Virus record (IMG/VR): IMGVR_UViG_3300021364_000062
Coordinates: 1-38,649 of that record
Strand: one strand, 5' to 3'
Length of the DNA stretch: 38,649 nucleotides
DNA from: a virus
Numbering within the stretch: position 1 is the first letter of the stretch; every line of letters starts with the position of its first letter. Under the pieces are notes generated by a model that had not been told where the DNA came from, did not search any database, and saw only the letters and a program-made list of their open reading frames with translations. Shown here one piece after another: positions 9,001 to 36,582 of the stretch. Made by a program: the position numbers and the translations under genes.

Positions 9001-12000
9001 TAATCTCATATTCTTAGTGACTAAACCATAATACTGAGTTTCTGAAGTTAGTTCTAATGATCTAGTGTCTACATTTAAAACTGAGGAAGATTCTGAATAG
9101 TCATCTTCAAAAGGTTGTAAGGTATATGGATTTAATTTAAATATATCTGGTTCTGGATCTGATGCGGGAAGTAGTGTTGGAATAACTTCTCCAGTAGTAA
9201 AATCTAATGGTCTATCGACTGGAAGTATAGTTGCTGGAACTCCAGAACCATCAAAAGGACCTGTTCTATGATTTGGTTTACATACTCTAAAAATTATTTT
9301 TTCAGATATATCAGTTACAGAATCACTTTCTACAGTTTCTCCAATCTGGAATTTTCCAGAAATCATTTCAATTTCAAGTAGTTTTGGAATAATGTAACTA
9401 CTAACATCAATACCCTCAAAGAAAGGATAGAATCTAGTTCTTGGCCTCAAGCCTACACTATCAAACTCAATATTTCTACTTCTTAAGAATCTGACTTCTT
9501 CAGTAAAGTTTGAAATTGATTCTGATGTAGTATCTGTAGTGATAATTTCTTCTGGAATTATTATAGTAGTAGTTTCAGAAGTAGATTCTGTAGTGGTAGT
9601 GGTTTCAACATCAGTTTCAAAAACTGTTGGTGGTTGTCCGGGTATGAAATTTATAACTGCCCTTCTTTGCCCATTGTTAGTATCAATAGCAGTTAAAAAT
9701 TGATTTGCAGCATCTGGGGGGAGAAGTTGGGTAATTAAATTTCTGTCTGTTTGTGTGACATTAGACTTCCATACATTTAAATGAAGTACATCGCTACCTA
9801 TAACAGTTTTACTTTCACCAGTTCCACTAGTTCTAATGTTAGATGAATTTTTATTGGGATCAATTGAAATTTGATATCCGCCAAATCTTGATACTCCGTT
9901 TAGAATATTTTTTGCATTTTGAATCCAATCAAATCCTCCAGTTCCAGTCATTGGAGTCGGAGCAGGTATGAATACATCCCTATCAATAGTTACGTTATTT
10001 ACAACTGTAAAGTTCTCATCCTCCCTCTCAACTCTATTAACAACTTCATTGAAAGAAGTTGTTTCTCTCGCAACTTCATCAATCCAAGTATCAATGGGCG
10101 GTCTAAGTGTTATAGAACCTTCCCAATATCTAACTAAAAATGGAGTAACGCTTTCAGTTTTTGATGCATAAGGTTGCTCAAAATATAAAACAGAATTATA
10201 ATTTAGTGTAATTAAATCTCCAGTTTTTCTAACATTCACAGAACCCAAATCAGAAACATAACTTAAATCTGAATTTGGTTGGAAATTTGAAGTTACTCCA
10301 TCAATAGCCTCAGATCCTAATTGGAGATCTAATGAAGTGGTATAATGTCTGGGTCTTAATGTATTTGTAGAAGTATCGATGCAAGATCTAAAATTTGGAT
10401 TTTGCAATTGATGGTAATCATGAGAACTAAAATTATCTACAAAAAATCCACACTTAAATCTATCCAATCCAGTTTCTGCATCCTTAATAGTAAAATTCTC
10501 TGTTTTACTTTCTAGCATTGAAAGGGTAGTAAATTTTTCAACTCTTTCAATTCTATTCTCCAATAAAGCAATATCTTCCATTCTGTACCTTTTATGTACA
10601 GACATATCAACATTTACATTTTTAGTATTGAAAACATATGGTGGTATGTATACTGTAGCTATATCTAAAGAATTTGCCAGTCTTTCTGATTGAGTTGGAT
10701 TACTTGAAGGATTACCTTGTAAAACTTCGAAAGTTCCATCAGAGTTTAAATAAACAGTATCTATTCTTCCAACATAATAATTGTAGTTTAATAATACATT
10801 TTCTCCCGAAGCAAGAATGTATTGTGAATACTGGCCATCAGAATCAAAAGTTCTAGAATCAAATTCAAATGGAGATTTATTTGATGTAGTATATGGAGCA
10901 ACTCTTGGTCTTATATCTACATAATCAGTTAATCTTACTTTATTATAGAAAGGAACATCATATTTGAAATTTTCTTGATCATAACTATTTGCAGTGATAA
11001 ATTCTCCAGTATCTGAGGAATCTATAGTATAATTTTGAAAGATTATTTTCAATTGTCTGGTTGGAGGTTCTACTCCACCTATTCGTATAATCCTAGAATA
11101 ATCATAAAATGTATCTCTTTGACCATCATCCAAAATAAAGTTTTTTGTTATATTTTTTGATGATGATATTTTATTAGTTATTGTTGCTTGATTTTTAGAT
11201 TCATTCCCAACAATAACTTCTGAAGAAGAGAAAGGATTTGTATTAAGATACACATACTCCAATTTATCAGAATCAACTCTACCAACAACCAATGCTACAG
11301 ACCCACTAGTTCTTCCAGTAATTTGTTCCCCGATTATAAAGTCCTGGTTGCCATTTAAAGTTCCGCTAATCTGAATTATGGGGGCACTTGCAGATGATGT
11401 TCCATTTGATTCAAATACTGCAAGAACTCTAACAACATCTGGAACATTTAAACTAATTTCACTATCTTGAACTCTAGTTCCATAGATTTGACTATATGAC
11501 AACCCATCATTAAGTGTTGTAGTACCAATTCCAGAGGATGTCAATGAAGAATTTGACACTGTCAATTTAGAAACTTTATTTAATTTTTTCTTCTTTGAGC
11601 TTGGTTTTAAATTTTTTACTGTTGCAATTAATTCTGCATTATTTCCAGATTGTTTTGAAAGACCTCTAAAGGTGACAGTTTTTCCATCATTACTCAATTC
11701 AAATTTATCTTGTCTCATTATCTCAGTAGTTCCATCTTCATATGAAATCAAATATCTATCTTCATCGAAAGATTCAAAATAAACATCAATCTCTAAGACG
11801 TTTATTGTTGCAGAAATGCTAGAATTCTGAAATGATGATATATTAAAAGTTCTTCTTTGAAGAATTTCTGTTTCTTGTAAATTTATACTAGAAACATTGT
11901 CATGGTTGAGTCTAGTTAAAAATGATTTTTCTTTAGATTCCAAATTTGGAGAAATTTTGATAATATTTGTAACTTCGAAAGATCCAGAAGAAAGACTTCC

Positions 12001-13926
12001 GTTGCAAATTTCGCTCACACTAGTAATTCCGGCAATAGTAAAACTAGTTCCAGATACACCTACAGAAGTTACTTTATTGTATATTGGGTCTCCAGTAAAA
12101 TCTGTACTTGCATAAGAAACAATATCTCCAACTTTAACTAAATTTGTAAATTTTGTTTCCAAACCTGCAGAAACAACCCCATTATCTATTTTAAAGGTAG
12201 TTCCTGGTTTTGCAATATAAGATTTTTTTGTAAGTACTAAATCAGCGTTAAAAGTGGAGAGTCCTACAGAATTAGTTGCATATATTGATTTAATATCGGA
12301 AATGGAATAGTCTGTAACTGAATTTATTAGCCTCCCATCATCTAATTCATTAATAATGATTTGTTCATTTTCTAAAAAATTTCCAGTAGTTTCATATAAA
12401 GTTAATTCTACCTCAGATGATCCTATAGCATTTTTTAAATAACCACTTGCATTACTACTTTTACCCCGAATAAATGTTGGAAGTGATAGACCACCATCAA
12501 TAGAAGTGGTGAGACCGATAGTAGTATATGTTCTTATATCAAACAATCTCAATTGCAATCTACTTGTCTGATCTACATAATCGCTTTCAGGAACAAAATC
12601 ATAAACTCTAGCCACTCCAATTGTAGTTCCTGCAGCAACATTAGAATCTGAACCTTTACGTTCATTTTGAAGATAAACTACATTATCAGTTCCAAATCCT
12701 ATTGTTGGAGCTCCTGTTCCATTATTAAGAATTGCTAAAGTTCCTGAATTGTATGATAGATTTATTTGGGGGGAAGTTTCAGTGGTTCTTGTTTTTGGAA
12801 CATCAATCAGTGTTGGGGAAATAGTTTCTACATCATACCCACCAACATATGCTTTTCCTGGTCCAATTTGATAGACCATTGAATCTTCTGAAGGATTATT
12901 ACCCTGGACAGTTCTCTGACCTTCGAAATAAACTCCTTGATTTCTAACTCTATCATTTAGACTATCTCTTACAAAAAGAGAAAATGGTTTTACAAAATAA
13001 TTTCCAGATTCATCGAAGGTTCTTCTAGCTAACTCATCTCTTATTAAATTGTATTGTGTATTCTCATTAAAAAATTGGGGGGCACCATTTTTAACTCTTA
13101 AAATTTCAACAAAGGAGTCTGTGTCTAAATCATCAATATTTTTTTTAGATAGAATTAATTCCAATTTAAATCTATCTGCACCTGGAGCGGCATAGTTTGT
13201 AAATCCTTGAGCATTATCAAACAGACTTGAATCTTCATCTGAGTTAACTAAAGTCTCTACAACATCAAATCCAACTTTATATGAAGGATTGGATCCATAT
13301 TGATCTAAAAGTATTCTTTGGGATTTTACATTTGCAAATATTCCCCCTACAAAATATACACCATCAGCTACAGATACAGCACTCCCTTCAAAAATAGCAT
13401 TTTCAAATAAAGTATTGCAAAAACCTTCTCCAGATTGAATAGTAAAATTGCCATAAGAAACTGGAGTTTCTAATATTAATGTTTCATTATCTCTAAAAAC
13501 TTTTACATCAAAATTTTCTCCTCCACTTTGCAGATATTTTACATATAAAGTATAATTTCCTTTCTCAGAATCTGTATTGTTTAATAGATATACTATTTCT
13601 GCAGTTACTCCACTTGAAGATCCTCTAATTTTTGCTCCTAGAAGTTCATTAAAATATAGTGAAATTGAATTTCCATTATACTCAGGTTCAATTTGAACTG
13701 CATAAAGTGGATTTTCGTATTTTAATTGCCCAGGAATTACTACTGACCCTTCTTTAAAAATATGTTTTCCAAATTGCTCAGTTTGGTACTGAGCCATAGA
13801 TTGTAGAGTATTTAATTCTCTTGCCTGAACTGGATACCCAGGTTTGAATAATACTTTATAATAATCTTTTTCTGGATCAAAATCATCAAAATATGGTGAG
13901 ACGTTTAGATTAGTTTCCTGTGACAT
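6082..13926 (-). CDS. Giant DUF4815-type virion structural protein
   Basis: 2614 aa. The N terminus carries the hallmark of the cyanophage DUF4815 structural family: VSPYFDDFDPEKDYYKVLFKPGYPVQARELN (cited here in parts: SPYFDDFDPEKDYY then FKPGYPVQARELN), with FGKHIFKEGSVVIPG near 52. Further landmarks: FFVDNFSSHDYHQLQNPNF near 1160; a Thr-rich linker near 1440-1470; GLRPRTRFYPFFEGIDVSSY near 1490; an Asn/Thr-rich linker near 1755; DPLAQSFYVSDNSGIFLTDV near 1785; GVGYT and GGLNY repeats near 2025-2075; RGVDGTSIRSYASG near 2250. It occupies the position of T4 genes 9-12, so a peripheral baseplate or fibre role is likely. It probably extends from the baseplate. The exact counterpart in T4 is unclear. 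It starts 6 bp after the gp8 stop. Confidence 0.88.
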   Translation of the reverse strand: MSQETNLNVSPYFDDFDPEKDYYKVLFKPGYPVQARELNTLQSMAQYQTEQFGKHIFKEGSVVIPGQLKYENPLYAVQIEPEYNGNSISLYFNELLGAKIRGSSSGVTAEIVYLLNNTDSEKGNYTLYVKYLQSGGENFDVKVFRDNETLILETPVSYGNFTIQSGEGFCNTLFENAIFEGSAVSVADGVYFVGGIFANVKSQRILLDQYGSNPSYKVGFDVVETLVNSDEDSSLFDNAQGFTNYAAPGADRFKLELILSKKNIDDLDTDSFVEILRVKNGAPQFFNENTQYNLIRDELARRTFDESGNYFVKPFSLFVRDSLNDRVRNQGVYFEGQRTVQGNNPSEDSMVYQIGPGKAYVGGYDVETISPTLIDVPKTRTTETSPQINLSYNSGTLAILNNGTGAPTIGFGTDNVVYLQNERKGSDSNVAAGTTIGVARVYDFVPESDYVDQTSRLQLRLFDIRTYTTIGLTTSIDGGLSLPTFIRGKSSNASGYLKNAIGSSEVELTLYETTGNFLENEQIIINELDDGRLINSVTDYSISDIKSIYATNSVGLSTFNADLVLTKKSYIAKPGTTFKIDNGVVSAGLETKFTNLVKVGDIVSYASTDFTGDPIYNKVTSVGVSGTSFTIAGITSVSEICNGSLSSGSFEVTNIIKISPNLESKEKSFLTRLNHDNVSSINLQETEILQRRTFNISSFQNSSISATINVLEIDVYFESFDEDRYLISYEDGTTEIMRQDKFELSNDGKTVTFRGLSKQSGNNAELIATVKNLKPSSKKKKLNKVSKLTVSNSSLTSSGIGTTTLNDGLSYSQIYGTRVQDSEISLNVPDVVRVLAVFESNGTSSASAPIIQISGTLNGNQDFIIGEQITGRTSGSVALVVGRVDSDKLEYVYLNTNPFSSSEVIVGNESKNQATITNKISSSKNITKNFILDDGQRDTFYDYSRIIRIGGVEPPTRQLKIIFQNYTIDSSDTGEFITANSYDQENFKYDVPFYNKVRLTDYVDIRPRVAPYTTSNKSPFEFDSRTFDSDGQYSQYILASGENVLLNYNYYVGRIDTVYLNSDGTFEVLQGNPSSNPTQSERLANSLDIATVYIPPYVFNTKNVNVDMSVHKRYRMEDIALLENRIERVEKFTTLSMLESKTENFTIKDAETGLDRFKCGFFVDNFSSHDYHQLQNPNFRSCIDTSTNTLRPRHYTTSLDLQLGSEAIDGVTSNFQPNSDLSYVSDLGSVNVRKTGDLITLNYNSVLYFEQPYASKTESVTPFLVRYWEGSITLRPPIDTWIDEVARETTSFNEVVNRVEREDENFTVVNNVTIDRDVFIPAPTPMTGTGGFDWIQNAKNILNGVSRFGGYQISIDPNKNSSNIRTSGTGESKTVIGSDVLHLNVWKSNVTQTDRNLITQLLPPDAANQFLTAIDTNNGQRRAVINFIPGQPPTVFETDVETTTTTESTSETTTIIIPEEIITTDTTSESISNFTEEVRFLRSRNIEFDSVGLRPRTRFYPFFEGIDVSSYIIPKLLEIEMISGKFQIGETVESDSVTDISEKIIFRVCKPNHRTGPFDGSGVPATILPVDRPLDFTTGEVIPTLLPASDPEPDIFKLNPYTLQPFEDDYSESSSVLNVDTRSLELTSETQYYGLVTKNMRLVGKTSGAIATVKEVRLISDNSGRLIGSLFIPNPNEPSNPRWINGENTFTLIDTPNLDNLDQIFDEFIANSRINESSAQAEFTSSGVRNVTQTNILTTRNVTILSSFNRNTNNITNTTTNTTTTTQTLTGGTGGQQFSVWENHDPLAQSFYVSDNSGIFLTDVEVFFETKDEEIPVTLQIRPMIAGVPSNEVVPFSEVTLNPDQVNLSSDGSISTRFTFPSPVYLPGPKQLEVRSAPIGSQQSSQFSVVLLSGSPQYRVYVSELGQNDILTGIRLSKQPTLGSLFKSQNGSTWSPAQLEDLKYRLYRADFVNNGVVKFFNPKLSMGNNKVTVTGDNQLLPLSKKVIVGLGSTGYDSAGLIPGASLSQGSATGKLVGLGGSAVTAFVTNSGVGYTDGTFPNVELVTQTGSGSGVVATIGVVNSGITTVTITDGGLNYQNGDILSIPEQNFGLNVGFGGKIGISSIGAINNSLIIDNVQGTFVSGASTIFYINSSGTQISTGATISSVRNDTYYDGLHMKISHLNHCMHSRENYVKISKMRPLNSEVSSTITQSIAISDTTFNLTSSSGFELFEGLPVNGSNYGYALIGEEVVEYTVSGNALNIAQRGVDGTSIRSYASGVKISKYEFNGISLRRINKIHNFAEVDNIEDHAITLNSYFIKIDTSDTDFDGKTIGKDRSNDLYFSETIRTGNPGTEISNNIQYEVITPKIANIIPSKTRLNSKIRSFSGSSISGNEISFRDKGFENVSLNTQNYLDSPRLVCSDVNEQRFITDSPGNRSFSIEFNMESNDSRVSPVIDTAIASIELTSNLVNSPTGGVNENANYANDDSVRSLNDDNHSCIYISKPVRLKIPANSIKVLLKASHTIENDIRVLYQLFRDDSPEDSLNYELFPGYSNYRIDGDGIKRVIDKSQNDGSSDSKIRFNQDPTFRDYEYSVDDLPEFNAFAIKIVMSSENQAFVPKVKDLRAIATVKPKV

Positions 13927-15527: not shown

Positions 15528-15539
15528 TATTTATTTATG
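15528..15539 (-). promoter_or_regulatory. Overlapping late promoters upstream of gp8
   Basis: The minus strand reads CATAAATAAATA, giving CATAAATA (15532-15539) and AATAAATA (15528-15535), both fitting NATAAATA. It sits 15 bp before the gp8 start and overlaps the last codons region of the giant upstream gene (stop at 15535-15537). Confidence 0.65.
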
Positions 15540-18500
15540 CTCTATAAAGATAGTTCTTCAGGGGTTGGTATCTTTGAACAATTGGAGATGTTGTAATACC
15601 AACAATTCCATTTTTATATACAGAAAACTCTGTGGGATTTTTTCTAATAAGTCCACTAATTCTTCCCCAACTATATTCTCCATAAAAATATGTTTGCCCA
15701 AGACTCACTAATCCATTATAATCTTCAACACTCACAACAACTCTTGCAACAGAAGTTGTTCCAACTCCAGAAACTGTTGTTTGTGCTATAGAAACACTTG
15801 CAACTTGATATACATTATCTATGAATGTTGATCCCACACCAATTATTGATCCAGTATCATCCAGGGAATTCAATCCATATCCAACGTTAGAATTTCTGAC
15901 TGCAAAATAATAACCAGTCTGTATACCGCTTATGCTAGTTGATGCTGTTCCAGTAATATCACTATCTCTAATATAGGAGTATTCTGGAATGAACAGTTCA
16001 AATTGAATTCCAGTTGAAGCAACACCGACAGATACTGTTGTAATTCCTGTAATAATTCCAAAATCACCTTCATAGACAATATCTTCAATTTGTTCAAATT
16101 TGGAGTTTGGTGGATCTATAAGAACCGAAGGTGGATTTGTATATCCAGATCCGCCATCTGAAACATCAATGGAAACTACATTTTCGCCAGAAATTGTTGC
16201 AGTTGCTATAGCAGTTGATCCAGATGAAATTGGAGATGAAATATAAACATTTGGTGTTGTTGAATATCCCAATCCATTATCTAAAATTTCAATAGAACTT
16301 ATTGTTCCTGCAATAGAAACTGTAGCAGTTGCTGCACAAGATATTAAAGAATCTTGAGATAATATTTTAATTGTTTTTGTTCCATCATCAACAACATCCC
16401 CAATTTCATCATAATTATCAAAAATTGTTTTTATATTATCTACAAAAATTTCAGTATCTGTAGTAGAGACATCTTTAATTAAGTATGAAGTTGGATTGAT
16501 AACTGGTTCATAAGACTCTCTTGCCTTTGATATAATGAAATTATTTGTAGATTGTCCAAATCCAACTGCAGACAAGAATATATCATTTCTTTGCTTACAC
16601 CATATAACATTCCTTTCTAAAGATTCACTATCAGATAATCCCCTTCCAGAATAAGTGTTAGTTTTAACAGTATCTGAAGTGATAATTTCATTTACAATTC
16701 TCCTATTTTCTTTAAGATTAATATCATCAGAATCTAGTCTAAGAGTATCGCCAACTTTCACAGTTTCAAAAATATCAACAAACTTTGTATCTACATCATC
16801 AGTTCCAGCATAGAAAAGAATTTTTGATTTTGCAACTCTTGATATATTTGAGTTTGGAATATCGAGTGATTGTGGTGCTTGTAAGAACCTAATTGTACTC
16901 CCTCCGTCAAATACATAAGATTCCCCAGGAACTTGAAGAACATCATTGATGAATATTAACAATGTATTTTGAAGGATAATGTTTGATCCAGGTTTCTTTT
17001 CAATTGAAGTTTGTCTGCCATCTATTCTTAATGGAAAAACTGTTCTAACACCATCAATAAGATCATCAATTGGATCTAAAACTTGAATTTTTCCTAAATG
17101 CCAAGCAGAGAATTGATCATCATAAACAGAATCAATAGTTAATTGAAACTCATCATATGATAATGAAGTGTTAGTTGGGATTCCAGTAGTTCCTCCAATA
17201 GCAACTGTTAAAATGTCATATTTATTGTATGCATATCCATAATTTTTAATTTCATAATTGAGTACACTACTATCTTGACTTACTATTAAATCCACAGTAG
17301 CCTCTGTCCCAATTCCAGGTTGAGGAGTATCTGAACTATAAATTAATGGAATATTTGAATATGATAAAGGCTCATCAAATATAACATCTGGTGGATTTGT
17401 GCTGGTATATCCAGATCCTGGATTAGTAATAGCAACACTTACAATATTTCCATTACTAATTGCCGCAGTCCCAATGAATTCAATGTTTGGTATTCCTAAA
17501 CTTGTTGTAGCAACACCTACATTAACTATAGTCTGAATTCCAGATCTATATCCAGATCCACTATTTCCTATACTAATAGAAGAAATTGTGCCCGCAATTG
17601 ACACTACTGCAGTTCCACCAGCAGATACTAATGGTTGATATCCAAACCCTTGCGTAGACCCTACAGAGACTATAATTCCACCTCTTGGTATACTTGAGTT
17701 GTTGATATCATAAGATGCCCCTACAGAAGATCCTGAGAAAGTTATAGAAGTGATTCCAGAAGATTCTTCTAGATCATAATCCCCTTCTATTGAAATTGTA
17801 CTTAATCTTGCAGGTAACTGCATTACATTCCTAACAAGAGTTATTGCATTGTCTGTAGAGAATCCGCTAACATTTTGATAATCTGATTTTAATGTTATTG
17901 TATTTTTTACTCCATTAAACTGATCAGAAATAGAATCAAAGATATAATTAGATTCATATGGTTGGATATTAGTACCTTCAATACCAGACCTCATAAAAGC
18001 TCTTCCACTAAATGTAGATCTGATTTTTAGACCATCAAAATCAGTTTCTTCAGGATCTAATGGATTTTCTATAGGAACTTGTCCTTTTGGCGGACTTGCA
18101 AAATAAATTGTGTTATTTGTGATGTTGTAATTTGCTTCAATTTTGGTGACAAGAGACCCTGTTAAATGACTTGTAGATATTGTTCCTAGTTTTGCTCTAT
18201 CCACCAAAATTGAATTTGTCGATCCATATCCAACAGCCACAACTTTCACAATTTCATCCTCAACTTTCAAAAATTCTCCGCCAGATATTTGGAGTAGATC
18301 ATCAACTAAAATTACTGTACTTAAACCTACAAAATCTGAAGACAGTTGAGTTGTTTTTGCAGTAGAAACTATTGGAGATTGAATTACATTATCTATAGAT
18401 ATTAAGCATTTTGTATTTTGTTTTTGTGATTCAAACTTATGAGTTGTTCCTACTCCCACAGAAGTCAAATCCAAATATGTTGGAATTACTTTTAATGCTT

Positions 18501-21500
18501 CTGTAGCAGATGCAGAAACTCTTACTCTAGAATTATCAATCTTTACAATATAGAGTGTAGATGGTAATTTATCTGTAGATCCAATTCCAGGTATTGTTGT
18601 AGTTCCAATTCCTATCGGAGATCCTAAATTTCCTCCCCCATTATAGATTATCTCTTCTCCCGTTGTGAAAAAGTGGTCTGGAATGATAATAATATCATTA
18701 TTAATATCCACTATAGATGAATCACTTCCATCAAAATCTCTTTCAAATATTTTTAAACCTCTATGTGTCAACTCAAAGAAATCTTTTTCGGTATTGCTAT
18801 CGAATTGATCGGAAATATCATCAATATCAATAACAATATTACCTATAGATTGAATATAATCTTGTATTAATTTGGAATTAAAGATAATTTTATTTGATCT
18901 TGTTCCATCAAAAATTAAATTTTCAGTTGCCAAATCAAAGTTAGTTATACAATCCAAATCAATAACTGAATCAATATTGCTTACGATTGTGACGTTTCCA
19001 CTGTTTTGATCTGTAGATATTCCAACTCTACTGTCCGATGTGACTCCAACCAATGAAAACTTTTTAAATCCAGCAGTATGATTTAAGATAGATACTGAAT
19101 CTTCCCAAACATTAAGAGGAATTTCTGACTTCAGTGCATATGAAAAATATTGATAATAGTCACTGTCGTGAATTCTTTGAAAATCATTGTTCAAAAATCC
19201 CTTTTCATTATTCCATCTATTATCAACAGTAGATCCGGAATCAATAACATAGAATCCCTCAGAAGAATTTACACTTATAATATTTGCTTTTGTATTACTT
19301 GTTTTACCTACAAGTTGTTTTCCCGAAACAAACTCATCTCTAGATGATACTACTAAATTCTTTGTTTGAGCATTCCAACTCTCTACTTTTCCAGAAATTT
19401 CATCAGAAACTATTTCTTCACCTCTTAGAAAATTTTTATCTTCAAATTTAACATTGAATGTTGGGAAGTATTTTTCTGGAATAATTCTAGCATTAGAAGT
19501 AACTCTATTGAAAGTTCCTAAAGTATCTGTTGGAGAAATTAATTCAGACATACTGTAAGAAACAGTGGCTCCTATTCCTCCGATATTAGGATCCACATTA
19601 TTAATAGTGAACAGAGTATAGTTATAATCTGAAGAATTGTAATTTTTCAATTCATCTGGACTTAAACTTATTGCTACATTTTCAATTAAAACCTTTTCAC
19701 CCACTTCAAATGGAAAATCACTAGCATCACTAAATGATGGGGCAAGAGTTACCGTAACATTTTTGGAACCTGTATCATATACAATTGAATCAATTTCAAT
19801 TCCATTTGAATTATTTACAGGTATAATTATTGGTTGAACATCAGAAATTCCCTCAGTGTTTTGAATAATATCAACCACATTATCTTGATACTTATATACT
19901 AAAATTGCATCACTTAGCAGTTCTCCAGTTATACCATCAATAACTATTAAATTTGTGTCTTCGGTGTATGCAAATCCTCTTTTAAGAACTTCGACACTTT
20001 CAATCTTAAATAAAGGATCAACTGCTAATGTATTTGGAATATTTACGGAAGGTCTAATAGTATTATCTGCTGAATAATCATAACCAATTGAGGATAATCT
20101 ATAAGTGGATATAATACCCACAGATGATGATTTTGAATATATATTTGCATTTATACCACTATTACTTTGAATTGATACCTTAGGGAGTGATTTGTATCCA
20201 TACCCACCAGTAGAAACCTTAATTTTTGAAATTTCACCAAGAACATCTTCGGAGTTTGTATTATATGAAAGAGTTGCTTGGGTTTCTGTATATGATGAAG
20301 ATTCTGGGAAATTATCTATTTGATATGTAAAAGTATTACTGGAAATTCCACTTAAAATCTTTGTACCAGAATATCTACTCTTTAAAACATTGATTTGATT
20401 GTTTCTGGGTTGATCTACATCTACAATAATTTCTCTTTTGACATTTGGATTATTTGTATCTGAAACAGGAACTAACTTATAATATATTTTTTTAGGGGAA
20501 TTATCATTTAAAGTTAATTCTAATCTTGCTGCAGAATTTACACCAACTTCATAAGTATTAAAAGTTCCATCTGAACCTTTTTTAGAAAATATAAATCTTT
20601 CATTGTTTCCAGTATAGATTCTATCAGAATAGTTCTCATCAAGATATAAATTTAAGTCAAAGGCTGGGAAAGGGGTATTTCCACTGACATAAGATAAACT
20701 TTCATCTGACAAGTCGAAAGAAATTGTTTCATATTCAGTATATTCAATTTCTGGATTTATTTTTGAAATTGTTCCAGATCCAGTAGAAGTAATATTTACT
20801 TCAGATCCAATTTCTAAATTGTATGTGCTAGTATAAAGTCTTATTTCATTTGAATTGATTGGATTGGCATAATAAATTTGATTATCTATTAATCCAGAAA
20901 TAGTAACAGTTTCTTCAAAAATAATTTTTTCTCCATATTTTATGTTGTGATTATTAATATAAATTGAATTATTTTCAACATCAACATTTAATGCTGTAAA
21001 TGATAGTGGATCTAAAACAACTCTTCTATTTGCATTGTTATATTTAACTACTATAGTTCTGGTTGTTTTTGGTCTTACTGTAATATCTACTTGATTTTGG
21101 ATAGAAAGTCCATGTGTTTGAGCAGTAGATACAGTCACAACATTTCTACTTGCCTCAGCAATTAGTACATCATCGTAAAGTGTCTTAAAGCTGTGATATG
21201 TATTAGTTCCAATTCCAGTAAAATATAGTAAGTTCGCTGATGTAGTTCCAACTCCAACAAAATTACCTTCGGAGTTCAATCCCACTTTAAAAGTGGATAT
21301 TCCAATCAAATCCTTAGATAATTTTGCTGCAAATATTTGAGATCCATCTCCAAGAGAAAATACATCCACACCATTTTTGGACACCTCTATAGAATTACCA
21401 CCATTTGTGTTATAAACTAATAAATCTCCAGTGGAAAGGTTGTGATTTGGCAAATATATTGCTTTAGTTGGAATTGTTAATGTGGTATTTCCAACTCCAG

Positions 21501-24500
21501 GATTTGAGAAGTATAATGTAGATGTTATGCCAATCCCAAATGAAGTTCCAATTCCAACAGATTCTGATGGGTCAAAATACAATTCTCTGTTTGTGGATTT
21601 ATTATAATTATTTTTTGGATTAAAGTTTACTGAAATTTTTCTTGGAAGTTCAGTAATCCCAATACCAGCAGAGTGAGTACTTAATCCTGATGCACCATCT
21701 CGATTTCTGAGAATTCTAATTCTTGAGGATTTTGAATCGATGTTTAATACTTTGACTTTCTCACTTCCAATCTGATAGAAATCATTTTCTCTAATTGCGG
21801 ATGATTGTAAATTTCCCGAAACGCTAATGTATGTTGCTATTCCAGTAGATTCAACTGTACCAATTCCAGAAACTAAGGTAAATTGATTTTTAGTAAAAGA
21901 TATCCTAGATTTTTGCTCAACTTCATCTAAGGCAAATATCTTAACCGGAAAATAAGTTTCCAAATCGTGGGGATTTTCTGCATATCCAACATAGTTTCCA
22001 TCACGATATTCAAATTCAATGTTTTGTATTGATGTTGAAGCGCAACTTACTGAATTTATTCCAACCCCCTTTAAATTGGAAACAAAGGCAGAAGCAGATC
22101 TTCCACCTGTTTCGGCATTATCAAAAACTATCCTATCCCCAACCCTATAATTGTTTCCACCATTTATAATTTCAATACTATCAATTTTTCCAGCACTAAC
22201 TGTTTTTATAGTTGACTTTGGTTTTAGATAACTTGAATTTAGGAAGTAATCATAACTACTATTTTTTTTACTTACATTGTATGAGTAAGTATTTTTTATC
22301 CATCCAGTTTTGTTTATATCTGTAGAATCTTGATTTGAATCACTTTTAAAATTAAATTCATTTGGTTTGGATTTATAATAATTACCAATTAGATATGGAA
22401 ATTCTGGTAACAGATACCTATCAGTACTATCATAGTTGGAAGAAAATGTTGCAAAGTATGCATAAGTCCCATCAGGAAATTCTGGTGTTACACAAAATCT
22501 TCCATTACGTCTATCCAAATCCCCACTATTGGTGAATTGATAATCCTCAACAAAGAATCCATTCGCATATCCTGAAGGTCTACTATCAGATAATATTTCA
22601 GAATATCCAGATCTCATTCTTTTAATGCCACCACTTCCATCAGTATTGGCATATCCATATGGACCATATATGGGGTGCCCATCATATGACCAACCTATGA
22701 TTGGAGAATGTGCTCCTGGAGATACTTCTTTACCATTATCATCAAAAACTAAATCTGCAGTTTTTAATCCATCTTGCCCGATTCCTAAGACTGATTTTCT
22801 CAATCCCCTACTTGCATAGATGTGTCCATACTGAAGTCCAATTATTCCCCTACCTGAGACTAAGCATCCATCATCATTTTCATCATTATTAATTGGATAT
22901 AGAATTGATGGTAATCTATAAGGTAGATTTATATTCCAAGGTTTTATATTTGCAGAAAACTTTGCACCAGTTCCTGGAGTTAATACATCAACTCTAGTTT
23001 TTTCTTTAGTATAACCACTGCCAGAAGAAACTACAACAACTCTTGTGAGCTTTCCATTTTCAATAACTGGAGACAGTTTGGCACCTATTCCATCACCATT
23101 TATAATCAAATCTGGTTGAATATTATAATTTGATCCCACCTTCACTGGATATGCAAAAATAATTTCCCCACCATAAATAACAACTTCAACTTCAGCACCA
23201 CTTCCAGACTCTAATGTTATTTGTGGTTGCTTCGAATAATTAATAATCTCTCGATCCCCATAATTAGATCCTCCATCTTCTATAAAAATGGATTTAACAT
23301 TTCCCCTAAAGACAGGAATTACCTCAGCTTCAAATTCTGTAGATGTATTATACAGTGAAGGAATTTCTACAATTCCGTTTATTGAGACTGTTATATCTGG
23401 ATAATTAAATTCGTGAACTTCTCCACCAACACTAGTCAGGTTAATATATTGACCAGTTCTTAGTAGAAAATCATCACCATTATTAGGCACTTCATACAAT
23501 CTAAATGAGTCACTATCAATAGATTCGACATAATAATTGGAGGTTGTTAATCCACCAATAGAAGTTGATTGAGGTTTGTATGAAATAAGTTCTCCAGTAG
23601 AGAATCCGTGATCTTTTATATTAATTGAATCAAATGCGGTATTAATTCCAGATTTTGATGCATATGCATACATCTTTCTATTTGTATATCCAGAACCTTT
23701 ACTAATTACATTAATACCTCCAAGTCTATTCTTTTTCTTTGCAGATTTAAATTTCTGTAAACCTAGATTTTCTGTAGTTGAAAATGATATACCAATACCA
23801 GCAACGGCTTTTTGATAAGAAGAATGTAGAGTAATTGTATTAATTCCAACAACACCGACATAATATGATGAATTGGTTGTTAAACCTGTTATATTATTTG
23901 TACCATTAGTGATGTAAATAACTTCTTCATAATTTGAGAATTTGTGGGGACTATCAAAAGTTATTTGATTTGAACTTACTGAAGATGGACTTGGAATTAT
24001 ATCCACTTCATAATCATATGATTTGAGAAAAGCTTCTGCCTTTGCCCCCGAACCATTTCCTCCACTAATGATTACTTCGGGAATATCTGAGTAATTGAAT
24101 CCGGGATCTATAATATCAATTCTCTCAAGAGATCCAGAAACACTGCAATTTCCAGTAGCACCAGATCCTACAGAATCTGATATGTTAAGAATGGGGTTAT
24201 TTATGACATCATATCCAGACCCTTCTGATAGGACATCAATACTTTCAATTTCTCCATAGTAAATGTAATCTCCAGACTTATAGTTTTGAATTTCAACCCC
24301 ATTCACAAAAATGCCGATTGGACCAGTTTCTGTTGCAATATCAGAACTACCATAACTTTCGGGTTTTTTTATTTCTCTAATTAATTTTTGTGTTTGGAGA
24401 TCCTTTTCTTCAAATTGCTGAGTTGACTCATTTAAAGTATTGAATAAAAGTAATCCTACAGATCCTCCAGTATATGAAGAAAAATCTACAAAGTTATTTG

Positions 24501-26451
24501 CAATGATAGATTCACTAGTCTTTGTAACCTTTATTTTATTTTCTCCTATTTTTTTACAGTATCCAACAATTTGATCCTGATTATTTAATTTTACAATCAA
24601 TAAATCACCAGTCAAAAATAAATGAGCATTTATGAAAGATATGGTTTCATTAGAAATTGATGAAATTTGTTTGGTTAAGGTATTGATTCTGATGGTATTA
24701 TTACCATATCTTGGTAATGATGATGCAGTAATATAAACAGAATCTTCTGTATTATCATAATAAACTCCAGAAACATTTGAATTGTAAATGTTTAATTCTG
24801 GATAACCTTCAAGATTTAATTTTGAAATACTTCTGTGTATCGTATATGATACGTTAGTATTAAGTTTACCTTGACCTCTAATTGAGACTGTGTTGTTATC
24901 TTGAACATCTGAAACTATACCATCAGAAGTTTTTCCGTTAGGTCCAACCAAATAAATTGGATCTCCAATTTTGAAATCATTTTCATCAAAAGTTGTAACT
25001 CTATATGAAAAGTCTGATATGTCATTTACAGGCTCAATATTTTGGATTTTATAATTAGATGCTACATTTAAAAACCAGTTCTCAACTCTAACATCATTAT
25101 TAAAATTATACTTACCTAGACTTTTTAGGTTTACTTCAAACCCACTTTCCAATAAATTATTAGTATTTGTTGAATCTAATTCCGAAATGACTCCAGTTAT
25201 TCTTACTCTAATTTCAGAACCATCTATGTCAGTTGCATATGCATAATCATTATATTTTACTTCTTCTCCGGCAAGAATATTTTGAGTAATACCAGAACAA
25301 CCGAAAAATTGAGTGGTTGACTTAGAAGTGTATGTTATTAAAATTACATTTCCTTCAGGTTGATCCACTATAAGAGATCCAAAATTTGGAAATCCTAATG
25401 TTGAATCTACATCTAAATGCTCTTGTCCAGCAATTACGTCTGAAACTAACTTAGATTTTGGATGAATTGTAAATTTTCCTTGAGTAGATCCTCTAGATTC
25501 AATATCCTTATCATAGTCAAAGTCCAAACTTACAATATAATAATCCTTTACTATTGCTGCTGCAGACTTTGAAGAAGTTTCTGAGATTATTTGACCAATT
25601 CTAGTTACATTTGATCTAGTTATCTTTTCTACATTTACAACAGTACCTTGAGCTTCTACTGAAGATGAAGTTTTATTTTGATATAAAGTCTTGTTTAAAA
25701 GATTTTCTGGATTCCCTTGTATTTGCTCTACTACAAGATCTTTTGTAATTCTATATTGAGCGACAGAGGGTTCAATAAGATAATCTCTAGGAAGAATAAC
25801 CTCAGCAGGTTTTCCATATAACGCATTAAAAAGAATTCTAAAAGATTCTGATGTTCCTTTTGATGTATAAAAATTATTTGCCTGCTTTACAAATAATTTT
25901 TCATTTAATGGTTCGTAAAAAGGTCTGTTTTCAAATCCTGGAGTGATTTGCTTTTTAATTTTATTGAAGAATTCTGATAGAAGTAGAGAGTTTAGATTAT
26001 TGACAACATCCCCAACAGAATGCTCATTCAAGTCGGAAGAAGAGAAAATTAATTCATCTGCAAGACTGTTTGCATTATACGAAGTAACTCCAGAAAATCC
26101 CCTATAGCAATTTTTAAATGAGGTCTCATCTTTACTTTCATATGCTATAATCTCATCATTAATCTGAATAAGACCTAATGTATCGGGAAACCCGGCAGTA
26201 GACTCAACATAGATATCTGAATCTACAAAATTGACTGCTTCAATAAGAGTTGTGGATCTAATTAAATCTCCAAGATTATCAACCTTTACATACTGATCTA
26301 TGTTATTCATCAAATCATAAGGATTTCCCTTAGATTCTAAAGAATAATAATATTGTTTTAAGAATTCTAATACTAAAGGAAATTCTGCCTGAACAAATTC
26401 TGGCAATTGATTTTGGATAATAGAACTGACTTTAACTCTTTTTTCTGCCAT
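15535..26451 (-). CDS. Giant YHYH-domain virion protein at the gp7 position
   Basis: 3638 aa, an uninterrupted 10.9-kb frame between gp6 and gp8, where T4 has gp7 (1032 aa). The N terminus (VKVSSIIQNQLPEFVQAEFP, FLKQYYYSLESKGNPYDLM) is the conserved start of this cyanophage protein family. A YHYH-type domain is visible near 1245-1345 (GWSYDGHPIYGPYGYANTDG, then FCVTPEFPDGTYAYFATF). Near 2455 is VWEDSVSILNHTAGFKKFSL. Near 3130-3195 are GVRTVFPLRIDG and FINDVLQVPGESYVFDGG, a common phage tail motif. GSGYT-type repeats occur at many points (for example near 745, 1180, 2945, 2980, 3395 and 3425). RGxxG and SWNAQTKNLVV modules also recur. It probably builds the wedge and a large peripheral structure. 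Equivalence to gp7 is inferred from position. Confidence 0.85.
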   Translation of the reverse strand: MAEKRVKVSSIIQNQLPEFVQAEFPLVLEFLKQYYYSLESKGNPYDLMNNIDQYVKVDNLGDLIRSTTLIEAVNFVDSDIYVESTAGFPDTLGLIQINDEIIAYESKDETSFKNCYRGFSGVTSYNANSLADELIFSSSDLNEHSVGDVVNNLNSLLLSEFFNKIKKQITPGFENRPFYEPLNEKLFVKQANNFYTSKGTSESFRILFNALYGKPAEVILPRDYLIEPSVAQYRITKDLVVEQIQGNPENLLNKTLYQNKTSSSVEAQGTVVNVEKITRSNVTRIGQIISETSSKSAAAIVKDYYIVSLDFDYDKDIESRGSTQGKFTIHPKSKLVSDVIAGQEHLDVDSTLGFPNFGSLIVDQPEGNVILITYTSKSTTQFFGCSGITQNILAGEEVKYNDYAYATDIDGSEIRVRITGVISELDSTNTNNLLESGFEVNLKSLGKYNFNNDVRVENWFLNVASNYKIQNIEPVNDISDFSYRVTTFDENDFKIGDPIYLVGPNGKTSDGIVSDVQDNNTVSIRGQGKLNTNVSYTIHRSISKLNLEGYPELNIYNSNVSGVYYDNTEDSVYITASSLPRYGNNTIRINTLTKQISSISNETISFINAHLFLTGDLLIVKLNNQDQIVGYCKKIGENKIKVTKTSESIIANNFVDFSSYTGGSVGLLLFNTLNESTQQFEEKDLQTQKLIREIKKPESYGSSDIATETGPIGIFVNGVEIQNYKSGDYIYYGEIESIDVLSEGSGYDVINNPILNISDSVGSGATGNCSVSGSLERIDIIDPGFNYSDIPEVIISGGNGSGAKAEAFLKSYDYEVDIIPSPSSVSSNQITFDSPHKFSNYEEVIYITNGTNNITGLTTNSSYYVGVVGINTITLHSSYQKAVAGIGISFSTTENLGLQKFKSAKKKNRLGGINVISKGSGYTNRKMYAYASKSGINTAFDSINIKDHGFSTGELISYKPQSTSIGGLTTSNYYVESIDSDSFRLYEVPNNGDDFLLRTGQYINLTSVGGEVHEFNYPDITVSINGIVEIPSLYNTSTEFEAEVIPVFRGNVKSIFIEDGGSNYGDREIINYSKQPQITLESGSGAEVEVVIYGGEIIFAYPVKVGSNYNIQPDLIINGDGIGAKLSPVIENGKLTRVVVVSSGSGYTKEKTRVDVLTPGTGAKFSANIKPWNINLPYRLPSILYPINNDENDDGCLVSGRGIIGLQYGHIYASRGLRKSVLGIGQDGLKTADLVFDDNGKEVSPGAHSPIIGWSYDGHPIYGPYGYANTDGSGGIKRMRSGYSEILSDSRPSGYANGFFVEDYQFTNSGDLDRRNGRFCVTPEFPDGTYAYFATFSSNYDSTDRYLLPEFPYLIGNYYKSKPNEFNFKSDSNQDSTDINKTGWIKNTYSYNVSKKNSSYDYFLNSSYLKPKSTIKTVSAGKIDSIEIINGGNNYRVGDRIVFDNAETGGRSASAFVSNLKGVGINSVSCASTSIQNIEFEYRDGNYVGYAENPHDLETYFPVKIFALDEVEQKSRISFTKNQFTLVSGIGTVESTGIATYISVSGNLQSSAIRENDFYQIGSEKVKVLNIDSKSSRIRILRNRDGASGLSTHSAGIGITELPRKISVNFNPKNNYNKSTNRELYFDPSESVGIGTSFGIGITSTLYFSNPGVGNTTLTIPTKAIYLPNHNLSTGDLLVYNTNGGNSIEVSKNGVDVFSLGDGSQIFAAKLSKDLIGISTFKVGLNSEGNFVGVGTTSANLLYFTGIGTNTYHSFKTLYDDVLIAEASRNVVTVSTAQTHGLSIQNQVDITVRPKTTRTIVVKYNNANRRVVLDPLSFTALNVDVENNSIYINNHNIKYGEKIIFEETVTISGLIDNQIYYANPINSNEIRLYTSTYNLEIGSEVNITSTGSGTISKINPEIEYTEYETISFDLSDESLSYVSGNTPFPAFDLNLYLDENYSDRIYTGNNERFIFSKKGSDGTFNTYEVGVNSAARLELTLNDNSPKKIYYKLVPVSDTNNPNVKREIIVDVDQPRNNQINVLKSRYSGTKILSGISSNTFTYQIDNFPESSSYTETQATLSYNTNSEDVLGEISKIKVSTGGYGYKSLPKVSIQSNSGINANIYSKSSSVGIISTYRLSSIGYDYSADNTIRPSVNIPNTLAVDPLFKIESVEVLKRGFAYTEDTNLIVIDGITGELLSDAILVYKYQDNVVDIIQNTEGISDVQPIIIPVNNSNGIEIDSIVYDTGSKNVTVTLAPSFSDASDFPFEVGEKVLIENVAISLSPDELKNYNSSDYNYTLFTINNVDPNIGGIGATVSYSMSELISPTDTLGTFNRVTSNARIIPEKYFPTFNVKFEDKNFLRGEEIVSDEISGKVESWNAQTKNLVVSSRDEFVSGKQLVGKTSNTKANIISVNSSEGFYVIDSGSTVDNRWNNEKGFLNNDFQRIHDSDYYQYFSYALKSEIPLNVWEDSVSILNHTAGFKKFSLVGVTSDSRVGISTDQNSGNVTIVSNIDSVIDLDCITNFDLATENLIFDGTRSNKIIFNSKLIQDYIQSIGNIVIDIDDISDQFDSNTEKDFFELTHRGLKIFERDFDGSDSSIVDINNDIIIIPDHFFTTGEEIIYNGGGNLGSPIGIGTTTIPGIGSTDKLPSTLYIVKIDNSRVRVSASATEALKVIPTYLDLTSVGVGTTHKFESQKQNTKCLISIDNVIQSPIVSTAKTTQLSSDFVGLSTVILVDDLLQISGGEFLKVEDEIVKVVAVGYGSTNSILVDRAKLGTISTSHLTGSLVTKIEANYNITNNTIYFASPPKGQVPIENPLDPEETDFDGLKIRSTFSGRAFMRSGIEGTNIQPYESNYIFDSISDQFNGVKNTITLKSDYQNVSGFSTDNAITLVRNVMQLPARLSTISIEGDYDLEESSGITSITFSGSSVGASYDINNSSIPRGGIIVSVGSTQGFGYQPLVSAGGTAVVSIAGTISSISIGNSGSGYRSGIQTIVNVGVATTSLGIPNIEFIGTAAISNGNIVSVAITNPGSGYTSTNPPDVIFDEPLSYSNIPLIYSSDTPQPGIGTEATVDLIVSQDSSVLNYEIKNYGYAYNKYDILTVAIGGTTGIPTNTSLSYDEFQLTIDSVYDDQFSAWHLGKIQVLDPIDDLIDGVRTVFPLRIDGRQTSIEKKPGSNIILQNTLLIFINDVLQVPGESYVFDGGSTIRFLQAPQSLDIPNSNISRVAKSKILFYAGTDDVDTKFVDIFETVKVGDTLRLDSDDINLKENRRIVNEIITSDTVKTNTYSGRGLSDSESLERNVIWCKQRNDIFLSAVGFGQSTNNFIISKARESYEPVINPTSYLIKDVSTTDTEIFVDNIKTIFDNYDEIGDVVDDGTKTIKILSQDSLISCAATATVSIAGTISSIEILDNGLGYSTTPNVYISSPISSGSTAIATATISGENVVSIDVSDGGSGYTNPPSVLIDPPNSKFEQIEDIVYEGDFGIITGITTVSVGVASTGIQFELFIPEYSYIRDSDITGTASTSISGIQTGYYFAVRNSNVGYGLNSLDDTGSIIGVGSTFIDNVYQVASVSIAQTTVSGVGTTSVARVVVSVEDYNGLVSLGQTYFYGEYSWGRISGLIRKNPTEFSVYKNGIVGITTSPIVQRYQPLKNYLYRA

Positions 26452-35743: not shown

Positions 35744-35908
35744 TTACCAATCAACATCAAAATCTTCTACATAAGCACTCACTTTTTCATTGGGTTCAAG
35801 TTTGAGTGTTTTCTCCCACTTAATTTGCCTCGGATTGAAGTCTTCCATGACCTCTAGATCCAATGTTACCCTTACCCGCCTTTTCTGTGCAATCTGATAA
35901 GAAACCAT
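35744..35908 (-). CDS. Small charged hypothetical, 54 aa
   Basis: MVSYQIAQKRRVRVTLDLEV, then MEDFNPRQIKWEKTLKLEPN, then EKVSAYVEDFDVDW. Basic N-terminal strand, acidic C terminus. It has the best expression signals of the accessory region: a Shine-Dalgarno GGAGGA 5 bases before ATG, a TTGACA-N17-TATGAT promoter 33 bp upstream and a strong terminator behind it. So it forms a complete one-gene unit, expected to be expressed early. The family is unknown to me in function, though I believe close relatives occur in cyanophages. Confidence 0.85.
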   Translation of the reverse strand: MVSYQIAQKRRVRVTLDLEVMEDFNPRQIKWEKTLKLEPNEKVSAYVEDFDVDW

Positions 35909-35940: not shown

Positions 35941-35969
35941 ATCATAAATCCCCTGGGCATTTATGTCAA
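35941..35969 (-). promoter_or_regulatory. Consensus sigma70 promoter TTGACA-N17-TATGAT
   Basis: Minus strand: TTGACA (35964-35969), 17-bp spacer, TATGAT (35941-35946). It fires towards the 35744-35908 gene. It is about 70 bp from a divergent consensus promoter. Confidence 0.8.
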
Positions 35970-36041: not shown

Positions 36042-36070
36042 TTGACATTTTAGAGTGCTTGTGTTATTAT
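36042..36070 (+). promoter_or_regulatory. Consensus sigma70 promoter TTGACA-N17-TATTAT (plus strand)
   Basis: TTGACA (36042-36047), 17-bp spacer, TATTAT (36065-36070), predicted start near 36077. It is the only strong promoter I found on the plus strand, and it points into the tandem array instead of a gene. Confidence 0.8.
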
Positions 36071-36076
36071 GGGCAG

Positions 36077-36308
36077 TCTAAGATCACAAGACTCTGAGAC
36101 ATTTAGAACAAGAACTCAAGACATTTAGAACAAGAACTCAAGACATTTAGAGAACATTTAGAACAAGAACTCAAGACATTTAGAACAAGAACTCAAGACA
36201 TTTAGAGAACATTTAGAACAAGAACTCGAGACATTTAGAGAACATTTAGAGAACATTTAGAACAAGAACTCAGGACATTTAGAACAAGAACTCGAGACAT
36301 TTAGATAC
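36077..36308 (+). ncRNA. Predicted repetitive non-coding RNA
   Basis: Inferred transcript from the promoter at 36042-36070 through the array. It has no open frame: the units contain TAG and are not multiples of three. No clear intrinsic terminator follows on the plus strand, so the 3' end is unknown and transcription might continue antisense to 36397-36582. Confidence 0.4.
36098..36308 (+). repeat. Tandem repeat array, 211 bp
   Basis: Built from two words: GACATTTAGA-type starts and AGAACAAGAACTC tails. I count twelve copies of CATTTAGA and seven of AGAACAAGAACTC, in full 22-bp units and shorter 11- and 13-bp units (CATTTAGAGAA). Only single-base changes occur (CTCAA, CTCGA, CTCAG). The units sum exactly to 211 bp with no spacers. 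Confidence 0.95.
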
Positions 36309-36309
36309 T

Positions 36310-36344
36310 TTTTCCACAGTAGTTGTGGAAAAACCTGTGGAAAA
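36310..36344. other. Three DnaA-box-like sites (TTTTCCACA)
   Basis: TTTTCCACA at 36310-36318, and its complement TGTGGAAAA at 36324-36332 and 36336-36344. The first two form a perfect inverted repeat with a 5-base gap. TTTTCCACA is, as I recall, the DnaA-box form of cyanobacterial origins. There is no T-tract behind the hairpin in either direction, so a terminator is less likely. Confidence 0.65.
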
Positions 36345-36396
36345 CAATACTTAAATAGATTTTTTAATACATTTTTAATTGTTTTTTAATTGTTTT

Positions 36397-36582
36397 TCAA
36401 ATATCAATCTCCCAATCATTATCTTTCAGAAGATTAACCCAAAAGTGATTCCTACCATTCATTGAAGTCAGAAAAACCTCATTACCTTTATTCTGTTCAA
36501 TAATACATTCAGGATTTGAATCCATCAGATTACTGAACCTGTTTTTTGCCTTTTTAGATTTTGGAGAAACAAATGCAATCAT
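36397..36582 (-). CDS. Small basic hypothetical, 61 aa
   Basis: MIAFVSPKSKKAKNRFSNLM, then DSNPECIIEQNKGNEVFLTS, then MNGRNHFWVNLLKDNDWEID. Alpha-beta, basic at the N terminus. The protein style (SPKSKKAKNRFSNLMD... FLTSMNGRNHFW) is a familiar one in T4-like cyanophages. ATG overlaps the stop of the upstream gene (ATGA), so the two are coupled. Downstream lies the DnaA-box/array region. Confidence 0.8.
   Translation of the reverse strand: MIAFVSPKSKKAKNRFSNLMDSNPECIIEQNKGNEVFLTSMNGRNHFWVNLLKDNDWEIDI

Follow-up and report, generated by a model that had tools for sequence, protein, structure and literature searches.

A conserved promoter and DnaA-box cassette as a candidate replication origin of T4-like cyanophages

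Why would a T4-like cyanophage keep a near-consensus promoter that points away from its genes, into repeats, host-type DnaA boxes and AT-rich DNA? The locus lies in a stretch of 38,649 bases (IMG/VR record IMGVR_UViG_3300021364_000062, positions 1 to 38,649), here called the window, which is a fragment of a T4-like cyanomyovirus. On its minus strand lie gp25, gp6, gp8 and the tail and neck genes; two very long minus-strand ORFs among the baseplate genes (6082-13926 and 15535-26451; 2614 and 3638 aa) probably encode tail or fibre proteins. Beyond the structural genes comes a run of small genes with no assigned function. A 54-aa gene and a 61-aa gene enclose a gap of about 490 bp, which we counted in favour of an origin because the median intergenic gap of S-PM2d is 6 bp (PMC5931967). 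Within the gap, a cassette composed of promoter, start motif, tandem array, DnaA boxes and AT-rich tract reads from left to right in this order on the plus strand, opposite to all neighbouring genes (Table 1). We consider this cassette the best candidate so far for the site at which these viruses start to copy their DNA.

The cassette in the window

Table 1. Features of the cassette and its flanks, in positions of the window
Feature	Position	Strand	Remarks
Flanking small gene	35744..35908	-	54 aa, phrog_12516, no assigned function
Divergent promoter, TTGACA-N17-TATGAT	35941..35969	-	serves the small gene to the left
Sigma70-type promoter, TTGACA-N17-TATTAT	36042..36070	+	antisense to the neighbouring genes; relatives have the same promoter in the same place
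Predicted start of transcribed region, CTAAGATCACAA	36078..36089	+	in most IMG/VR cassettes
Tandem array, 11-bp units ACATTTAGAAC / AAGAACTCAAG / ACATTTAGAGA	36097..36305	+	purine-rich leader
DnaA box 1, TTTTCCACA	36310..36318	+	exact motif
DnaA box 2, TTTTCCACA	36324..36332	-	exact motif, inverted to box 1
DnaA box 3, TTTTCCACA	36336..36344	-	exact motif
AT element TTTTTTAATACATTTTTAAT, 20-mer, candidate unwinding element	36360..36379	+	within AT-rich 36345-36400
Flanking small gene	36397..36582	-	61 aa, phrog_1653, no assigned function; ends at the AT-rich tract

A preliminary description of this DNA had pointed to a consensus sigma70 promoter reading into repeats on the plus strand, and the promoter is indeed near-consensus: it matches 11 of 12 consensus bases and a TG precedes the -10 element. 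Perfect matches to TTGACA-N17-TANNAT occur only three times in the window, the second being the divergent promoter. The boxes, already likened to cyanobacterial DnaA boxes in that description, carry exactly the published cyanobacterial motif, TTTTCCACA (PMC5987646). The window holds no further exact copy besides the three listed; about 1.0 would be expected in its whole length, and the chance of finding three within 35 bp is about 9e-7. Boxes 1 and 2 form the perfect inverted repeat that had been noticed (10 bp, with a 5-bp loop), and the first box stands 4 bp from the array rather than the 2 bp first given. A scan of contigs for triple boxes returned matches in many phyla, so a cluster of the motif alone is no proof of a cyanobacterial-type origin.

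The AT-rich DNA said to follow the boxes is exceptional in its duplex stability: of all 60-bp stretches of the window, 36345-36400 belongs to the 0.01% with the lowest stability, and T-rich 11-bp repeats run through the tract up to about 36400. The corresponding tracts of four isolates fall in the lowest 0.5-1.4%. The 20-mer TTTTTTAATACATTTTTAAT, which defines the AT element of the window's cassette group, occurs exactly in 66 IMG/VR stretches and in S-PM2, where it adjoins the boxes.

The tandem array was also confirmed, with a length of 209 bp by TRF instead of 211 (period 55, 4.0 copies, 84% matches). Twelve copies of ACATTTAGA lie in it, each 11 or 22 bp from the next, and the rest of the window has a single further copy. 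As no ORF of at least 60 aa lies on the plus strand of the array, we rejected it as coding sequence. In most relatives the repeat motif occurs one to three times, which indicates that, as judged from sequence comparison, a long array is not needed; a single-copy version, GAGACATTTAGAG, is present in S-SM1 and S-SSM5, and a similar one in S-CAM8. Leaders of IMG/VR cassettes, taken from promoter to boxes, repeat most strongly at 33-34 bp (z 11.7 and 8.9 without the window), and the array of the window is therefore the expanded case of a common feature. The array was also rejected as the key part of the cassette, given that an exact 31-mer from it is absent from IMG/VR and that a search for a triple-ACATTTAGA pattern hit only three contigs, and in none of them this cassette. 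Two apparently unrelated contigs carry 25-bp arrays containing ACATTTAGA (L204 1117-1216 and L205 3980-4070).

Conservation of the cassette and variation of its palindromic sites

A low-stringency search with the window element led to gaps of the same kind in S-PM2, Syn1, S-RIM44, S-CAM3, S-CAM8 and DSL-LC03, and a match to the promoter only in SynMITS9220M01. Exact boxes were then counted in 22 whole phage genomes. At least two exact boxes within 40 bp were found at the cassette in 13 of them (S-PM2, Syn1, S-RIM44, S-CAM3, S-CAM8, S-RIM8, DSL-LC03, S-ShM2, Syn9, S-SM2, S-SM1, S-SSM5 and Syn19); of the 14 cyanophages that had not been chosen through the element itself, 7 have the cluster. Conservation of the boxes in relatives, the test named in the preliminary description, is thus strongly borne out. 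The only other box clusters in the 13 genomes were in DSL-LC03 (80507-80579; L133 ~1884-1957) and S-ShM2 (53068-53092; L154 1069-1093), where a further group of exact boxes lies 200-400 bp from the one at the cassette. Among the genomes surveyed, no box cluster was found in S-SSM7, S-CRM01, P-SSM2, P-SSM4, P-HM2 and ACG-2014f. The P-RSM4 cassette contains one degenerate box and that of P-SSM7, a phage on Prochlorococcus NATL1A, two exact boxes; the idea that the boxes are confined to Synechococcus phages was dropped for this reason.

In the isolates the cassette lies on the strand opposite the genes and consists of TTGACA, then CTAAG, in many cases ACATTTA, and then AT-rich DNA and boxes; the CTAAG of the start motif is invariant in 11 of 11 aligned isolate cassettes. 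The boxes are arranged as +,-,- with steps of 14 and 12 in the window and, identically, in S-CAM3; as +,-,- with steps of 13 and 12 in S-PM2 and DSL-LC03 (one DSL-LC03 box is degenerate); as +,- at 23 in S-RIM8, S-CAM8 and S-ShM2 and at 24 in Syn9; and as three direct boxes at 12/12 in Syn1 and S-RIM44. Their position relative to the promoter and the AT element differs by group; in the window they stand before the AT element, in S-PM2 after it. A 128-bp S-SSM5 cassette matches 168 cyanophage records, 158 of them over at least 80% of its length, and a 136-bp S-PM2 cassette matches 56 records, always at one place per record, many of these records being near-identical isolates. Some of the matching records annotate a small hypothetical ORF over part of the match. 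The cassette is a conserved, single-copy, largely non-coding element of T4-like cyanophages. Hundreds of sequenced viruses whose cyanobacterial hosts live in oceans and lakes have it, each genome one time.

Two side observations concern individual loci. In S-PM2 (NC_006820, 19177-19333; L131 1458-1614), tRNA-Asn and tRNA-Leu are annotated across the boxes and the AT element; the coordinates look misplaced, since ARAGORN finds no tRNA in that 3-kb stretch. Another cyanophage contig (L317 1107-1170) carries four exact boxes, three of them in a tandem repeat of 21-bp period, CCTGTGGAAAAGTATTATAAT.

To obtain loci not chosen by their boxes, IMG/VR was scanned with the 20-mer TTTTTTAATACATTTTTAAT alone, which gave 52 distinct loci. 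Promoter and start motif lie upstream on the same strand in 36 of them. Exact boxes occur within 110 bp upstream of the AT element in 16 of these 36 cassettes, against a background of 1 in 3158 windows elsewhere on these contigs. The boxes stand mostly at about -31, -42, -53, -63, -74 and -84 from the AT element, and their phases cohere at 10.5-11 bp (Rayleigh p about 5e-4 for 10 configurations from related phages that are not independent). Two features of a DnaA origin, a cluster of host-type DnaA boxes and their helical register beside a candidate unwinding element, are therefore present. A rule that the nearest box faces the AT element in one way was discarded, because it fails in L347, L355 and L358 unless degenerate boxes are counted.

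What do the remaining cassettes carry? Exact boxes are lacking in 20 of the 36, and 11 of these bear other palindromes instead. We call the DnaA boxes module A (16 cassettes); module B (5) has TTGATTCTCAATAA/TTATTGAGAA palindromes in the place of the boxes, module C (6) has sites of the type TGATACGAATTCGTATCA...AATAATTATCA, and 9 cassettes have none of these; no cassette has two kinds together. Module B, which presumably resembles Fur-type operators, was seen as (A)TTGATTCTCAATAA with TTATTGAGAA at L344, L345, L364, L370, L389 and L288, and module C as TGATACGAATTCGTATCATTATCACC then AACAATAATTATCA at L342, L353, L361, L371 and L339. Isolates show the same in the same place: S-RSM4 has module B (L518, ~140.2 kb) and SynMITS9220M01 a degenerate module C (L127, ~1590-1650). 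By their sequences, the cassettes without DnaA boxes look like the outcome of a cartridge exchange, and such swapping implies that the cassette family can do without DnaA itself, and that not all relatives need it for whatever the cassette does.

A transcription-activated origin and the competing readings

How might such a cassette work? In the T4 origins oriF (ori uvsY) and oriG (ori 34), whose core is ~100 bp long, a promoter used by host RNA polymerase is followed downstream by an A+T-rich unwinding element, and the transcript persists as an R-loop that primes leading-strand synthesis (PMC3016281). Because the cassette has its promoter and AT tract in the same order, with DnaA boxes in register, we propose that it may be a transcription-activated origin of T4-like cyanophages at which host DnaA would help to open the DNA, a reading that we hold at even chances. 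We infer that host RNA polymerase would start at the antisense promoter and make a purine-rich, unstructured, non-coding RNA through the repeats towards the AT-rich unwinding element. The boxes beside that element would be occupied, in helical register, by host DnaA, which would help to keep the strands apart, and leading-strand synthesis by the phage replisome would be primed by the RNA in an R-loop. What the sequences themselves establish is the parts, with their order, register, copy number and conservation. The purine content of the leaders is 58% (background 48 +/- 7%; 64% in the window) and the predicted fold of the transcript is no better than that of shuffled sequences (z -0.26); a purine-rich, unstructured leader of this kind would favour R-loops.

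The order of the parts and the conservation of the boxes support the origin reading of the preliminary description, whereas the GC skew does not help it and the replacement of the boxes by other modules counts against it, as do the group-dependent position of the boxes, the cyanomyoviruses that have no box cluster and a neighbourhood unlike that of T4 oriF. A skew switch had been anticipated at the site. The cumulative GC skew is weak in Syn9, S-PM2, S-CAM3 and S-ShM2 and shows no change at the cassette; what lies about 8 kb from the boxes is its maximum, not its minimum, and p about 0.02 is reached in only two of the four genomes. We rejected GC skew as an origin marker here for being weak and off-target, and it is a weak test in phages that pass to recombination-dependent replication. 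Origin is consequently our leading hypothesis, and DnaA-type origin describes only half of it. More tentatively, the origin may be modular: the R-loop promoter and the unwinding element would be fixed, and a cartridge of initiator sites would be exchanged between lineages, with host DnaA boxes in most and two other palindromic operators in others.

If modules are exchanged, is DnaA needed at all? In a pure R-loop origin of the T4 type, promoter, leader and unwinding element would suffice, DnaA would have no initiator role, and the module would serve only to bring in a protein, of an architectural or roadblock kind, that stops RNA polymerase beside the unwinding element. The swapping of the module while promoter, start motif and AT element stay, including modules B and C in S-RSM4 and SynMITS9220M01, agrees with this, as does the fact that T4 oriF and oriG need a promoter and an unwinding element only (PMC3016281). 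We nevertheless find it doubtful, because most of the isolates surveyed, like both major cassette groups, have two to four phased copies of exactly the host initiator's motif.

The strong conserved promoter, the conserved first transcribed bases and the lack of an ORF could also belong to a regulatory non-coding RNA gene, making an sRNA or an RNA antisense to a gene at its 3' end, with the palindromes as operators or termination sites; cyanophages are known to make antisense RNA (cfrI, PMC5931967). This is unlikely, since an Rfam search of the element gave no match, the transcript lacks the secondary structure beyond chance expected of a structured non-coding RNA, the leader varies from about 30 to over 300 nt with differing repeat units, and no terminator-like site reading the plus strand was found at the cassette. 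Moreover, the first box is inverted in most phages and direct in Syn1 and S-RIM44 with its 9-mer intact, which argues that an RNA hairpin is not what is kept; a hairpin formed by the inverted boxes was rejected on this flip, the chance-level fold and the empty Rfam search.

Quite unlikely, too, is a transcriptional switch without a role in replication, in which the divergent near-consensus promoters and the boxes as operators would regulate the small genes at its flanks (phrog_12516 and others): no gene belongs to the rightward promoter, the boxes lie 240-270 bp downstream of it, beyond the usual range of operators, and the cassette persists despite different flanking genes in S-PM2, Syn1 and the window. 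Very improbable is a decoy that would titrate host DnaA to stop host replication, as datA titrates DnaA in E. coli, for although this lytic phage has exact host boxes and phage copy number rises during infection, the boxes number only two to four per genome, in a register fixed to AT element and promoter, and are replaced in the same place by unrelated palindromes, so that the sites would act locally.

Relation to known origins and meaning for cyanophages

Compared with T4 oriF and oriG, the transcription-activated origin proposed here shares the promoter and the AT-rich unwinding element that follows it on the same strand, among the least stable DNA. It differs in having host-type -35 and -10 elements instead of a MotA middle promoter, in a transcript that would be non-coding antisense RNA instead of a gene's mRNA, and in the addition of host DnaA boxes or other palindromes and of phased repeats. 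Its neighbourhood is not the uvsW-uvsY-25 setting of oriF either. A synteny with oriF (the cassette lies between gp25 and a 'helicase', oriF between uvsW and gene 25) was rejected, as the helicase is not UvsW by tblastn; the T4 uvsW ortholog lies at 120-144 kb in S-ShM2, Syn9 and S-CAM3 and at 82.5 kb in S-PM2, tens of kb from the cassette. The comparison of loci is a test of common descent, not of mechanism. T4 itself (NC_000866) has only two copies of TTTTCCACA, and one, at 115853 inside gene 26, lies ~530 bp from oriF, probably by chance.

With the DnaA-type oriC of cyanobacteria the cassette shares clustered TTTTCCACA adjoining AT-rich DNA. It has two to four boxes, whereas Nostoc oriC has six (PMC5987646), it sits behind a dedicated promoter in a phage with its own replisome, and neither dnaA nor dnaN is near it. 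Direct repeats in helical phase, DnaA boxes of the host type and an AT-rich tract stand side by side in the cassette, as they do in iteron plasmid and lambda-type origins. The difference is that the repeat motif of the cassette is down to one copy in most isolate relatives, and no initiator-like gene, Rep or O, was found among the flanking proteins tested. For Syn9, a single theta origin has been predicted (Weigele 2007, as quoted in PMC2984593); Syn9 holds the cassette once, although its skew profile in our analysis does not point to it. In the open-access literature, as far as it was accessible, this prediction was the only statement on origins of T4-like cyanophages that we found, with no mapped origin, and we found no mention there of DnaA boxes in cyanophages. 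Promoter-bearing phage origins are a known kind, as are origins with DnaA boxes; within that literature, what appears to be new is that T4-like phages combine the two and that the module can be exchanged.

T4-like cyanophages rank among the most abundant marine viruses, and the cassette provides a named coordinate in the laboratory-grown isolates Syn9 (52.6 kb), S-PM2 (19.2 kb), S-SSM5 and S-ShM2. If DnaA acts at the cassette, a phage family with its own replisome would have tied the start of its replication to the replication initiator of its host. Should the exchanged modules be docking sites for other proteins of the host, different phage lineages would have their replication licensed by different host regulators, and, were the modular reading true, a phage origin would have been re-keyed to different host DNA-binding proteins by the swapping of cassettes.
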